Shown: piece by piece, positions 56,719-64,000 of the stretch
How positions within the stretch are numbered: the first letter of the stretch is position 1
Layout of the letters: each line of letters opens with the position of its first letter
DNA from: Lawsonibacter asaccharolyticus
GTDB lineage: Bacteria > Bacillota > Clostridia > Oscillospirales > Oscillospiraceae
Length of the DNA: 64,000 bases
Assembly: GCA_003112755.1 (NCBI GenBank)
Contig: BFBT01000001.1
Coordinates: 496,001 to 560,000, forward strand
Reading direction: 5' to 3'
Translations under genes and position numbers: made by a program
The notes under the pieces: model-generated
What the model was told of the DNA's origin: nothing
Databases searched by the model: none
The model's input: the letters and a program-made list of their open reading frames with translations, nothing else

Positions 56719-57561
56719 ATGGAACCACGGAAGATCACAGAGGAGACGCTGGCGGCCTTTGCCCGACAGCTGGGAGAGGAGGAACGCAGCCCCGCCACCC
56801 TGGAAAAATACCTGCGGGAGGTCCGCCAGTTCGCCGCCTTCCTGGGCGGCCGTGAGGTGACCCGGGATCTGGCCGCCGCCTGGAGGGAGGAGCTGTCCGC
56901 CCGCCAGTCCCCCGCCACGGTCAACGGCAAGCTGACTGCCCTGGACCGCCTGCTGGCTTTTCTGGGCTGGGAGGACTGCCGGGTGAAGCACCTGCGGGTG
57001 CAGCGGCAGCTGTTCCGGGACTCCGCCCGGGAGCTCAGCCGGGAGGAGTACGCCCGGCTGGTGGAGACGGCCCGCCGCCTGGGGCGGGGTCGGCTCTCCC
57101 TGCTGATGGAGACCATCTGTGCCACCGGCATCCGGGTCAGCGAGGTGCGCTATATCACGGCGGAGGCAGTGCGGGAGGGCCGGACGGAGATCGCCCTGAA
57201 GGGGAAGATCCGCACCATCCTTCTGCCGGGGAAGCTGTGCCGGAAGCTGGAGAAGTACGCTCGGCAAAAAAAAATCACCTCCGGCGAGCTGTTCCTCACC
57301 AGAAGCGGCAGGCCCATGTCCCGGAAGCAGATCTGGGCAGAGATGAAGGGGGTGTGCCGGGCGGCCGGGGTCGCTCCGTCCAAGGTCTTTCCCCACAACC
57401 TGCGCCACCTGTTTGCCCGGTGTTTCTACCGGGTGAGCCGGGATGTGGCAAAGCTGGCTGACGTGCTGGGCCACTCCAGCATCGAGACCACCCGCATCTA
57501 CCTCATCTCCACCGGCGCCGAGCATGCCCGGACCCTGGATCAGCTGCGGCTGATCTCCTAG
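56719..57561 (+). CDS. tyrosine recombinase (XerC/D-like), intact
   Basis: 280 residues. The N-terminal SAM-like DNA-binding domain covers about 1-95 and the catalytic domain the rest. All catalytic residues can be found: Arg in ATGIRVSEV, Lys in LKGKIRTIL, HxxR in HNLRHLF, His in LGHSSIETTRIY with the nucleophile Tyr of RIYL. CAGGAGGA precedes the ATG. It ends 5 bases before the left inverted repeat of the adjacent element, so it is the best candidate to invert that segment. Not linked to any phage or plasmid genes here. Confidence 0.93.
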   Translation: MEPRKITEETLAAFARQLGEEERSPATLEKYLREVRQFAAFLGGREVTRDLAAAWREELSARQSPATVNGKLTALDRLLAFLGWEDCRVKHLRVQRQLFRDSARELSREEYARLVETARRLGRGRLSLLMETICATGIRVSEVRYITAEAVREGRTEIALKGKIRTILLPGKLCRKLEKYARQKKITSGELFLTRSGRPMSRKQIWAEMKGVCRAAGVAPSKVFPHNLRHLFARCFYRVSRDVAKLADVLGHSSIETTRIYLISTGAEHARTLDQLRLIS

Positions 57562-57633
57562 CTTATGACAAAATCGTTCTTCTGTCATTAAAATTGCTCC
57601 AAAATTTCAAAATACATAATTGGAGTAGTTTAT

Positions 57634-57662
57634 ATTTTACCATTTTCTGAAATAGAAATCAA
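57634..57662 (-). promoter_or_regulatory. promoter inside the invertible element, now pointing left
   Basis: On the minus strand TTGATT (57662-57657), 17 bases, TAAAAT (57639-57634). It reads out through the left repeat, antisense into the recombinase gene. After inversion it would read through the right junction into 57913 and on toward 58803. Confidence 0.75.
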
Positions 57663-57679
57663 TCTTTTTTCCAGATTCA

Positions 57680-57741
57680 GGCATGACAAATCAGGCCAAA
57701 AAACATTTTGTCTTTTTGGCCTGATTTGTCGTGCCTTTTTT
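57680..57741 (+). terminator. long terminator inside the invertible element
   Basis: A 23-bp stem (57680-57702 with 57713-57735, one wobble pair) and 10-base loop followed by six T. A further outer pair, ATTTTCTGAAA (57641-57651) / TTTCAGAAAAT (about 57738-57750), surrounds it. It blocks rightward read-through in the present orientation. Confidence 0.9.
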
Positions 57742-57848
57742 CAGAAAATCCTGATGTTTTAGACACTTTTTTCTTCTGCCTGGAAAGGAGGAAACTGTCA
57801 ACGCCGCTCTATCCCGCATATTTTCGATGACGGAAGAACGATTCTGTC

Positions 57849-57912
57849 TATAAATGGGAGGGAGTCACATGGGGTAACGAAAGAGAGCCGCATCTCCCAA
57901 GGGGAGAACGCA
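57849..57912 (+). promoter_or_regulatory. junction downstream of the right repeat
   Basis: TATAAA (57849-57854) adjoins the right repeat; ATGACG inside the repeat (57827-57832) is 16 bases upstream as a poor -35. After inversion that hexamer would become ATGACA. AAGGGGAG before TTG 57913 is the ribosome site of the next gene. Confidence 0.4.
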
Positions 57913-58737
57913 TTGCAGGAGCCCCAGACACAGGGGATCACGGTCACCCGGGAGCAGATCGGCTCCTATCTGTCCAGCCTGGGGGAACGAGGGCGGAACC
58001 CCAGCACAGTATCCTCCTACCGAAAGAAGCTGGAGCTGCTGTATGCCGCCCTGCCCGGCGGCCGCATCGGCCGGGGCACCCTGCGCCAGTGGCGGGAGCA
58101 GCTGCTGGACCAGGGATACTCCCCCAGCACGGTCAACACCAGCGTGTCCGCGGCCAACAGCTTCCTGGAGTGGCTGGGCTGCAGGGAGTTCCAGCTGACG
58201 GGGCGGCTCTCCTGCGGCAGGGATGCCCAGCTGGAGCTGACCCGGAGCGAATACCTGCGCCTGCTGTCCACCGCCCGGGCTCTGAGACAGGAGCGGGTCT
58301 ATCTGCTGATCAAGCTGTTCACCTCCACCGGATTGCCGGTCCACGAGCTGGAACAGGTGACGGTGGAGGCGGCGGGCGAGGGGGTCCTGCTCCTCCCGGG
58401 GGAGGCGATGCCCCAGCGCCTGCCCGACTGCCTCCGAAGGGAGCTGCTGGACTACGCCCGGAGGCAGGGGATCTCCTCCGGCCCCATCTTTGTCACCCGC
58501 ACCGGCCGCCCCTGCGGCCGGGCCGGGGTCTCTGTCAGCATCCGCCGACTCTGCCGGGATGCCCAGGTCCCCCCGGAAAAGGGCAACCCGCGGTGCCTGC
58601 GGAAGCTGTATTACACCACCCGAGCGGAGATCGAGGCCACTGTGGCCCAGCTGGTGGAGCAGACCCATGAGCGCCTGCTGGAGGCGGAACAGGCCGCCGT
58701 CGGCTGGGGCGGCTGTCAGGAGGTGAGGGGCGCCTGA
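57913..58737 (+). CDS. degenerate tyrosine recombinase-like protein
   Basis: 274 residues, start TTG 57913 behind AAGGGGAG. It aligns in plan with the recombinase at 56719: SAM-like N-domain (NPSTVSSYRKKLELLYAAL, SPSTVNTSVSAANSFLEWL), then a catalytic-like domain (RSEYLRLLSTARAL; PIFVTRTGRP). But the first catalytic Arg is Pro (STGLPVHEL), the HxxR box reads RCLRK without His, and the region of the final His and Tyr is absent. It is therefore probably a DNA-binding partner or regulator of the switch, not an enzyme. 65 bases precede the surface protein gene. Confidence 0.85.
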   Translation: MQEPQTQGITVTREQIGSYLSSLGERGRNPSTVSSYRKKLELLYAALPGGRIGRGTLRQWREQLLDQGYSPSTVNTSVSAANSFLEWLGCREFQLTGRLSCGRDAQLELTRSEYLRLLSTARALRQERVYLLIKLFTSTGLPVHELEQVTVEAAGEGVLLLPGEAMPQRLPDCLRRELLDYARRQGISSGPIFVTRTGRPCGRAGVSVSIRRLCRDAQVPPEKGNPRCLRKLYYTTRAEIEATVAQLVEQTHERLLEAEQAAVGWGGCQEVRGA

Positions 58738-61800: not shown

Positions 61801-64000
61801 GCTGGACGGATGCAACTAACAAGACCACTACGATCCTGTCCGCCAACGATACCGCCCCCACCACTGTGGCCAGCCCCTACACTGTCAACGCCGACACCAC
61901 CCTGTATGCCGCCTGGGGCTACGACACCGACGGTGACGGCAATCCCGACGTTACAGAGGACAAGCGCACCGTGACCTATAACGCCAACGGCGGATATTTC
62001 GACAGTACTTCTTCCACCACTACTAAGGAAGAGAAGGTCCCGGCGCAGCCCAGTTACAGGCTGAACACCACCGATGAGTTCAAGCCCACCCGTGATCAGG
62101 TTGGCGGTAAAGATGTGGCCTTTGTGGGCTGGTCTGAGACTCAGCACAGCGACATTTACGGACTGGATGACAGCTATGATGACAGCATCCTCGCCGCCAC
62201 GGTGGATGTCTCTTCGGAGAATAAGACCGTCTACGCCGTATGGGGCTATGACACCAACGGCGACGGCAAACCCGACGTGCAGGATGAGTCCTATGGCATC
62301 ACCGCTTCTGTTGATGGAGGCAACGGCTCCATCACGCCCCCGACCCGCTATGTGCTCGCCGGGGCAAACGCCGAATTTACCATCAAGCCCGAGGAAAACT
62401 ACGCCCTGGACACCGTCAAAATTGAGACGCGGGATATTCTTGATCACACGACAAAAACTGAAACCTACCCCAACGACGGGGAGCACAACATCCCCGGGTA
62501 TGCCAGCGGAACCCTCACCTTGAGTGATGTCCGGTCCAACTACGCCATCACCGTCACCTTTGCGGAGGATGCGGACAAAGACGGCACTCCGGACAAGTAC
62601 GACCGCACCCTGACCTATGACGCCAACGGCGGATATTTCAGCAGTGAGGACGAACAGACGAAGACGGAGACCGGCCTGAACGACGACCAGAACCATAAGC
62701 TGAACACCACCAATGATTTCAAGCCCACCCACGCCGACCAGGACGGCCATAAGGTGCTGTTCATCGGCTGGACAACAGATACTTCCGCACAGAATGAAGT
62801 CTATGAGCGCGGCGATGGCGATTCTCTGCCCACCCTCTGTGGACGCACCGTGACCATCAGCGGCGATATGGTGGTCTACGCGGTGTGGGGCCTGGACAGT
62901 GACGACGACGGCACGCCGGATGTCACCGAAGATGACCACCACATCACCGCTACCGCCGGGCCCAACGGCTCCATCAATCCCAAAGAAGCCTATGTGTCCG
63001 ATGGAGGAAGCGCCACCTTCACCATCACCCCCGTCAGCGGCTACGCCGTGGACACCATCACCATTGACAGCACAGCGCATAAAAATGACGGAACGGCTCC
63101 CGCCCCCGGCACCAGCTGGACTTCCTACACCTTTAAGGATGTGACGGAGGATCACACGATTTCTGTCACCTTCGGTCTGGACGAGGACGACAACGGTGTG
63201 CCTGACGCCAACGAGCCGGAGGCCGCCTATACCCTGACCTACCACGCCAACGGCGGCGCGTTCGACGGTCAAACTGATCCATATGTGGTAAACGATGTGG
63301 CGGCAGGCCCGCATACTCTGAGCGACATCGCTGCTCCCACCCACGACGCTGTGGAGTACAACGGACAGCAGGATGTCCCCGTCCTCTTCATCGGCTGGAT
63401 GACTGAGGACGACCACGAAACCATTTACAGCGTCGAGGACACCGCCCCCGACACCGTGACCTCTGTCGCTATGGATGAGGACAAGGCGGTCTGGGCCGCC
63501 TGGGGCTATGACGAGGACGGCAACGACAAGCCCGATGTCACTGAGACCCAGTACACCGTCACCGCCCGCGTGGAGGGCGAGGGCGGCTCCATTGATCCGA
63601 CCAGCAAGACCGTAAACGCCGGAGAGGACGTGGAGTTCACCATCGACGCCGAGGGCGGCTATGCCCTGGACACCATCCAGGTGAACGGTAAAACTGAGTA
63701 CACCAACGACGATATAACCGCTCCTTTTGAGGGCACCTGGACGCTGGAAAATGTTCAGGAAGCGGCCGAAGTTGTGGTCACCTTCGGCGAGGACGAGAAT
63801 GACAACGGCGTGCCCGACGACAAGGAGGAGCCGGAGGAGGAGCAGTACACCGTCACCGCCTCCTCGGACAGCGAGGAGCAGGGCTCCATCGATCCCACCG
63901 AGGCGACCGTAGACGCCGGAGATGATCTGCCCTTCACCATCCACGCCGAGGACGGCTGTGCCCTGGACTACATCACCGTCAACGACGATGTGGTCTACTC
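58803..64000 (+). CDS. very large secreted repeat protein (partial, runs off the window)
   Basis: More than 1,730 residues, open to the window end. The ATG is 9 bases after GGAG. A signal peptide (LSWLLAVCMLFSLLPGTALA) is followed by a von Willebrand A-like domain (about 100-430) whose MIDAS reads DMAPE rather than DxSxS. Next comes a domain ending WKVPASLIPLRTV and a SpaA/Cna-like beta domain (about 800-960). After that, InlB/Flg_new-type modules (TYNANGGYFDS..., FIGW, YAVWG) alternate with a second type (GSI.P, FTI, GYALDTI, VTF), joined by Ca-binding linkers such as DTDGDGNPD. The wall-anchor region is not in view. It is presumably a phase-variable adhesin or surface fibre (inference). Confidence 0.9.
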   Translation, partial: MRKLRKPLSWLLAVCMLFSLLPGTALAADPDPAPVADTTTYTDWEDLFGVGGSAYLTTKDIGRIWTDKSVSTQDIKLPGTTIEGLTDNTVKKEADADFLVALSGLGSAATIVDETKVPTDTVIVLDMAPEMEPYVEDMVAAANDALENLLTANPNNRIAVVAYGNTAIPLLPLDHYSNYSDQSPEELLQVGVHDNGIWADTTYVASYGKTDAGISIVEEEFEFDSGEERNTQIGIYTGMDLLLQTSDTTVTVDGVELTRAPVMVLLSCGEPENGDTNFMTPSRRNIDPEYIGNNTPLNHRAQAFVTMMTAGNMKAKVSEHYYGADPDRSVHVFTVGVGLEEAGPDEGLAITALNPKERLETGAGFGDELKQAYTDYQTNGSVRLSRAEGPAGADQYTTISKTDNPGSDNITYEDYKYNDNFYLASNFQSQEDWNTIFQQILDEINTIAPTSPTETPEGAPGTGGESGFITFTDELGPYMKVVGAPTVLYGDHAFTATTNDNGATYTFTGTVEGNEIYGEANLADLELTVTTDGDTQTLTWKVPASLIPLRTVTATTHVDGDGHKTYSIQQNQEAYPIRLFYSVDRDDAVTFDQDDNDYLIAHSKDGTTSFYSNAWDAAAKDDTQYGTATAVFTPAASNAFYHYTEDTPLYVLVDNVAGGNQKLLTHDEALDHLLQSTVIPERGTVVIDGTTYNIVRAQEAHKGQGAAFFYEHRYYQAQGTGDTGELDADLLTDYHLVLNPNALQGHVVDDAGGLSIQKGSAKLSRVSDGSAAKTVNGTGTAVHYRHPVYNVDDTKVTVHLGNNGLRTEKTPTGTLTVKVNTTTGSNVPSPEPEFTYKLELYNVSPEGTVNGKLDTQKAPVTVKIGDGSETPLNSDGTFQLQPGQTATVSGIPAGTAYQLTETAIAGYEDTYQNSYPGYETTPQGRVVYDSTGNIAASVTVSHAYDPSQRSFTLTYNGNAVQGSVTNVPSAQSNITGGSQVTLAGGPTHSAMGSVAVAFIGWTDATNKTTTILSANDTAPTTVASPYTVNADTTLYAAWGYDTDGDGNPDVTEDKRTVTYNANGGYFDSTSSTTTKEEKVPAQPSYRLNTTDEFKPTRDQVGGKDVAFVGWSETQHSDIYGLDDSYDDSILAATVDVSSENKTVYAVWGYDTNGDGKPDVQDESYGITASVDGGNGSITPPTRYVLAGANAEFTIKPEENYALDTVKIETRDILDHTTKTETYPNDGEHNIPGYASGTLTLSDVRSNYAITVTFAEDADKDGTPDKYDRTLTYDANGGYFSSEDEQTKTETGLNDDQNHKLNTTNDFKPTHADQDGHKVLFIGWTTDTSAQNEVYERGDGDSLPTLCGRTVTISGDMVVYAVWGLDSDDDGTPDVTEDDHHITATAGPNGSINPKEAYVSDGGSATFTITPVSGYAVDTITIDSTAHKNDGTAPAPGTSWTSYTFKDVTEDHTISVTFGLDEDDNGVPDANEPEAAYTLTYHANGGAFDGQTDPYVVNDVAAGPHTLSDIAAPTHDAVEYNGQQDVPVLFIGWMTEDDHETIYSVEDTAPDTVTSVAMDEDKAVWAAWGYDEDGNDKPDVTETQYTVTARVEGEGGSIDPTSKTVNAGEDVEFTIDAEGGYALDTIQVNGKTEYTNDDITAPFEGTWTLENVQEAAEVVVTFGEDENDNGVPDDKEEPEEEQYTVTASSDSEEQGSIDPTEATVDAGDDLPFTIHAEDGCALDYITVNDDVVY

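Follow-up and report, generated by a model that had tools for sequence, protein, structure and literature searches.

An invertible promoter segment beside a tyrosine recombinase gene in Lawsonibacter asaccharolyticus, with a catalytically inactive recombinase paralog at the head of the putative switched operon

Invertible promoters served by tyrosine recombinases are well established. In E. coli, fimS is an invertible promoter of surface genes that is served by FimB and FimE, both of them catalytic, and FimE is favoured in one of the two fim orientations. Among the invertons catalogued more recently, group 139 contains 33 members, 32 of them in Clostridia, and its most significant link, according to the main text, is to invertase group 35, which is of the tyrosine recombinase type (Jin et al. 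2025, PMC11892184). The same main text describes an inverton of Intestinimonas butyriciproducens whose 14-bp repeats enclose 227 bp; reads support both of its orientations, and it shifts with surface attachment (PMC11892184).

The locus analysed here, from Lawsonibacter asaccharolyticus, resembles inverton group 139 and invertase group 35, as these are presented in the main text of PMC11892184, in its short repeats, its nearby tyrosine-type recombinase and its place in the Clostridia, and the element sizes are compatible. Compared by class and element size, group 139 is probably the same kind of switch, and the switch as such is therefore not new. The original prediction had held that this locus lacks a described match; given the published group of clostridial invertons and tyrosine recombinases, this applies to one part of the locus, an inactive recombinase paralog, but not to the rest. 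The main text of PMC11892184 uses neither "inactive" nor "degenerate", and no inactive paralog was found there, nor did we find a description of an inactive paralog in a switched operon among open-licence full texts, a body of literature distinct from subscription papers and preprints.

The window, the stretch of 64,000 nucleotides analysed throughout (G000:C1:496001-560000), lies in a genome of 4.28 Mb on 7 contigs. At 56719-57561 on the plus strand it carries a gene for a tyrosine recombinase of 280 amino acids, the presumed flipping enzyme (PF00589, 81.7 bits; PF02899, 30.7 bits). Alignment of its product showed a complete R-K-H-R-H-Y set of catalytic residues, as in 112 of 113 aligned active relatives, a count in which presence of the tyrosine is favoured because the list of active proteins had been filtered beforehand to matches reaching past residue 255. 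NCBIfam models assigned the protein neither to XerC or XerD (92.6 and 105.2 bits against cut-offs of 335.15 and 329.6) nor to the Fim-type DNA invertases (29.0 and 26.4 bits against cut-offs of 221 and 222).

The stop codon of this gene ends at 57561, 5 bp ahead of the first of two inverted repeats of 22 bp (57567-57588 on the plus strand and its inverted copy at 57827-57848 on the minus strand). Direct re-reading of the letters bore out the original description of these repeats: they are identical at 20 of 22 positions and have the form of a 7-6-7 recombinase site, with arms GACAAAA/TTCTGTC and GACAGAA/TTCCGTC around the core TCGTTC. They can be extended to 27 nt at 85% identity. A repeat search and a genome pattern search located the same two sites, the pattern GACARAATCGTTCTTCYGTC (up to 2 mismatches) occurring exactly twice in the 4.28-Mb genome, in opposite orientations, and a reversed control pattern matching nowhere in it. 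An inverton is recognized as a short segment flanked by inverted repeats, each 10-40 nt long; here the 22-bp repeats enclose 238 bp (57589-57826), the candidate invertible segment.

Within this segment, a promoter scan identified as the interior's best-scoring site the one predicted originally, TTGATT-17-TAAAAT on the minus strand (57662-57634), which is sigma-A-like, has a TG preceding its second hexamer and is now aimed at the recombinase gene. A strong hairpin is also present, as predicted, but its stem has arms of 24 nt at 57679-57702 and 57713-57736 (96% complementary) and is not the 23-bp stem at 57680-57741 that had been proposed. Its predicted RNA fold has an energy of -41.5 kcal/mol (z -8.8; none of 200 shuffles was equally good), and six T residues follow it on the plus strand, giving a terminator-like element at 57679-57742 that would block rightward read-through as the segment is drawn. 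A simple terminator scan of the window does not report this hairpin, and an Rfam search gave 11 matches, mostly of the hairpin to microRNA models and none at the gathering score. One further promoter-like site, absent from the original prediction, lies on the plus strand at 57565-57594 (ATGACA-18-TAAAAT, 10 of 12 positions); it extends beyond the left repeat on both sides and is directed at the hairpin, and inversion would split it.

This anatomy fits an assignment of the drawn orientation as OFF and the inverted one as ON, the interior promoter facing different genes in the two, as judged from sequence. In the proposed OFF state, transcription from the promoter would run back into the recombinase gene, and read-through to the right would be halted at the hairpin. 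In the ON state, the promoter would fire through the right repeat into a second recombinase-like gene (57913-58737) and a giant protein anchored by SLH domains. From its adjacency to the left site and its intact catalytic residues, we infer that the linked recombinase (56719-57561) would recombine both crossover sites and thereby carry out the inversion. The giant protein is encoded on the plus strand from 58803 to beyond the end of the window at 64000 (2159 amino acids in all) and is probably secreted to the surface, having a signal peptide recognized by eye and three C-terminal SLH domains.

Both orientations of the segment occur in sequence data. A protein search with the second gene returned 502 relatives, and the top match, P0001 (321 amino acids; 98% identical), is a record that represents a 90% cluster of 528 sequences from 37 contigs. 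The first 47 residues of P0001 match, at 46 positions, the reading frame computed from the inverted interior (316 of 321 overall), and its longest exact run is 32 residues with the flipped leader as against 11 with the leader as drawn. Because the start of P0001 matches the flipped frame, the ON junction of this locus is present in public data; the search for a reversed 57589-57826 segment that accompanied the original prediction thus had a positive outcome, in the form of a protein that encodes the flipped junction of the window's own locus. P0090 also begins with a flipped leader (17 residues against 11) and is the only other protein to do so among the best 120 of the 502 relatives. The N-terminus of P0001 is unlikely to be a genuine leader peptide, because its ATG lies at the -10 box (ATGGTAAAAT) and hence upstream of any transcript from the switch promoter.

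The inversion reading gained further support from G006, the genome of a congener assembled as one contig, in which a related locus is present as two near-identical copies set in opposite ways. Between the copies, the inactive gene differs at 0 of 807 bases and the active gene at 1 of 864, and the 252 bp between the two genes are inverted at 99.2% identity. The duplication covers at least 13 kb on opposite strands, with the switch states opposite, and about 1.8 kb of downstream genes do not align between the copies; by eye, the genes behind this switch resemble a polysaccharide operon. A second pair of loci, L066 and L069, is inverted over 287 bp at 99.65% identity. Four loci (L020, L058, L066 and L069) contain a third copy of the crossover site and may thus have extra invertible or deletable segments; in L066 and L069 it is the inner pair that differs. 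Among locus pairs with interiors aligning over at least 150 bp, 4 are in opposite and 17 in the same orientation (5 and 18 in the raw rows, into which one locus had entered twice), and the two opposite pairs other than those of G006 and L066/L069 are only 71% and 76% alike.

One could read the repeats and hairpin instead as an ordinary intergenic terminator or the remains of a mobile element that does not invert. The inversions in G006 and between L066 and L069 argue against this, as does the presence of repeats at 85 of 105 comparable places, and P0001 contradicts it unless that record is an assembly artefact; we consider this reading very improbable indeed. We are, conversely, highly confident that the phase switch is real, and a self-contained ON/OFF switch is likely to be the best explanation of the locus overall, its observed and inferred parts taken together.

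The same anatomy recurs in relatives. A scan of genome contigs gave 245 relatives of the active gene, and the titles of the best 80 of these, which were kept, are those of Oscillospiraceae and other, mostly gut, Clostridia. Together with loci taken from further genomes, these gave a total of 118 distinct places with an active gene, of which 105, including the window, could be scored for repeats, with a search zone of the first 60 nt after the stop codon and a partner up to 520 nt further on. A repeat pair scoring at least 13 lay beside the stop codon at the 85 places cited above (62 of 76 in the genome-contig set), and the maximum score reached with one shuffle per place was 11. Twenty places had no repeats at this threshold, which also missed the G006 locus, one that does flip (score 8). 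Among the 73 sites scoring at least 15, 62 match the arms at 11 or more of 14 positions. Every one of these 62 has a core of 6 nt, and since there are 47 different cores among them, each switch tends to have its own address.

With hand-set promoter weights, 54 of the 85 switches read as OFF and 15 as ON, and 16 had no clear promoter direction. In 66 of the 69 switches with a clear direction, the hairpin was situated behind the promoter, and the distance from the promoter centre to the outer edge of the faced repeat had a median of 82 nt (66-104 nt in 61 of 69). A run of T residues lay on the side expected of the OFF state in 31 of the 69, on the other side in 10 and equally on both in 13; by the same rule a hairpin was absent in 15. 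This census of terminator polarity is supportive without being uniform.

The genes behind these switches are varied. When 72 downstream proteins (74 selected, 2 dropped for size) were scanned, each cut to 1050 amino acids, the commonest families were Listeria-Bacteroides repeats (10 of 72), DUF4379 zinc fingers (9) and BspA leucine-rich repeats (8), and SLH domains (3), VWA domains (3) and glycosyltransferases (2) were rarer. In a separate scan of the slot for the first gene behind the switch, DUF4379 was found in 7 of 10 proteins. These are treble-clef zinc-finger repeat proteins of 300-420 amino acids, first behind the switch in L001, L002, L003, L005, L012, L032 and L050. Switches of this sort decide which surface proteins a gut commensal shows and, in some loci, probably control polysaccharide or pilus genes.

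In the window, this slot is held by the second recombinase-like gene (57913-58737, plus strand), the first of the putative switched operon, which encodes 274 amino acids from a TTG at 57913 and matches PF02899 only (30.0 bits). Its reading frame stays open further upstream. The TTG, which stands behind GGGGAG, is the likely start because the ATG at 57869, although it has a better ribosome-binding site, meets a stop after two codons. Two short upstream frames at 57854-57877 (ATGGGAGGGAGTCACATGGGGTAA, with ATG GGG TAA within) end just ahead of this likely start and are possibly a translational control, or a lost older start, of the inactive gene.

The original prediction had spoken of two recombinase genes. 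The first is intact, but the second has lost the catalytic tyrosine and both catalytic histidines, does not show the R-K-H-R-H-Y set of the active proteins and is a member of a conserved clade of inactive proteins. The alignment covered proteins longer than 200 amino acids, 113 of 118 active and 36 of 39 inactive ones. The tyrosine and the two histidines are missing from every one of the 36 inactive proteins, the first arginine from 30 of them and the lysine from 33. The inactive proteins group as one clade (SH-aLRT 99) in a tree built by a quick method, in which long branches were flagged and the outgroup did not lie on one side of any branch. The clade has a conserved tail of its own, NPRCLRKLY...EQ..GW, and residues of its own that are invariant across 26 aligned proteins. 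The second protein nevertheless has a predicted tyrosine recombinase fold with an N-terminal SAM-like domain (PF02899), modelled by AlphaFold2 with pLDDT 89.9 and pTM 0.61 and with a predicted helix at 226-263 where active enzymes have their tyrosine region; a structure search of the PDB gave 30 matches (E<=0.001; query TM 0.38-0.49), the best being XerA and the Tn1549 and lambda integrases.

One explanation for these losses is that the second gene is a decaying, functionless duplicate. Apart from the missing catalytic residues, the ATG with the better ribosome-binding site and its early stop would suit such decay, as would an internal stop in a few copies (for example, one TGA in a G052 copy) and a median dN/dS above that of the active genes (0.47 in 411 of 630 pairs against 0.27 in 3084 of 6328), the latter from distant, saturated pairs on which we did not rely. 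Opposed to this are the grouping in a single clade that has invariant residues of its own in 26 aligned proteins, a dN/dS of 0.10 in the closest usable pair (0.37 and 0.33 in the next two), a length above 200 amino acids in 36 of 39 copies and the 502 relatives in the database. Given such family-wide conservation, we judge a pseudogene quite unlikely.

Most relatives lack the inactive gene. Among the best 80 of the 245 relatives, 24 have it downstream of, and on the same strand as, the active gene, with partial matches in 3; contigs end within 1 kb in 8 of the 80, and on one of these 8 a part of the inactive gene is still visible. At L072 the inactive gene is present downstream and no repeat pair was detected. 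In 28 pairs, the inactive match starts 249-479 bp behind the active gene, and the distances among active and among inactive proteins correlate (r 0.42; 0 of 5000 permutations). The inactive gene is patchy: at a cut-off of E<=1e-45, and with up to 8 candidates scored in many genomes, it was found in 6 of 297 genomes of the order, and in the genus it was counted in 12 of 64 genomes (at least 44% identity, by eye). Eight inactive copies are unpaired. Four of these have at least 1.5 kb of upstream sequence yet no adjacent active gene, one of them with a weak active-like match (27%) about 1.5 kb away; among the others, 3 lie on contigs that end too soon and 1 has a partner cut by the contig end. 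At L161, an unpaired inactive gene has a lone site-like sequence upstream and, by eye, a promoter-like TTGAAA-17-TACAAT aimed at it, as if the locus had been locked ON by deletion.

The four copies without an adjacent active gene would be expected if the inactive paralog had no part in flipping and instead bound DNA to regulate transcription, either of the surface operon or at other loci. The slot it occupies is held elsewhere by DUF4379 proteins and may thus serve more than one kind of regulator, or regulators generally. Such independence from flipping sits poorly with protein distances that track those of the neighbouring enzyme and with its place after the active gene, on the same strand, in 24 of 80 relatives, and we regard this role as unlikely.

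An alternative that keeps the paralog within a real switch is that it acts as a directionality factor promoting flipping from ON to OFF, in the manner of FimE. It would be the first gene made in the ON state, it retains the recombinase fold, and OFF exceeds ON in assemblies by 54 to 15. However, the OFF excess is alike in switches without the inactive gene (41 OFF, 12 ON) and with it (13 OFF, 3 ON), so that no orientation bias attributable to this gene was seen; by analogy with fim such a role is conceivable, and we consider it doubtful.

We tentatively favour, at somewhat less than an even chance, a role in which the inactive paralog, produced in the ON state only, would sit on the crossover sites or take up a position in the recombinase complex, thereby damping or biasing further flipping and feeding back on the stability of the ON state. 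Occupancy of this kind is the simplest role, because the N-terminal DNA-binding domain and the C-terminal helix are kept. In an extended form of this proposal, ON would make a dedicated, naturally evolved dominant-negative subunit that binds the crossover sites together with the active enzyme and latches the state, and in OFF the same promoter would transcribe the recombinase gene in antisense, each state thus feeding back on the flipping enzyme; this form is rather improbable, and the orientation census neither supports nor excludes the latch.

On the evidence of sequence, then, the first product of the ON state here would be a conserved recombinase unable to cut by the chemistry of its family. 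If the proposed feedback is true, the paralog would represent a phase-switch regulator that evolved naturally and depends on the state of the switch, a simple part for genetic memory, and the setting of switching rates in a commensal would be directly testable. Names such as "site-specific integrase" and "XerD", borne in databases by no fewer than two proteins related to the second gene (P0086 and P0095), may not mean an active enzyme.

Compared with known systems, the active gene shares its domain make-up and the 7-6-7 site plan with XerC, XerD and XerA, and even the inactive protein has its best fold matches among XerA structures; the active protein scores below the cut-offs for all three, that for XerA being 220 bits against a score of 123.8. 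The RecV switches of C. difficile (cwpV and flagellar), as portrayed in passages of PMC5903667, likewise consist of a short segment that a tyrosine recombinase inverts before a large surface protein or a flagellar operon. There, one RecV serves several switches, whereas here each place has its own recombinase and its own core, and the window's locus is further set apart from the RecV switches, as described in those passages, by the inactive paralog that its switched operon contains. With fimS of E. coli the locus has in common an invertible promoter of surface genes and two genes of the recombinase family; it differs in that one of the two recombinases is inactive and is located inside the switched operon.
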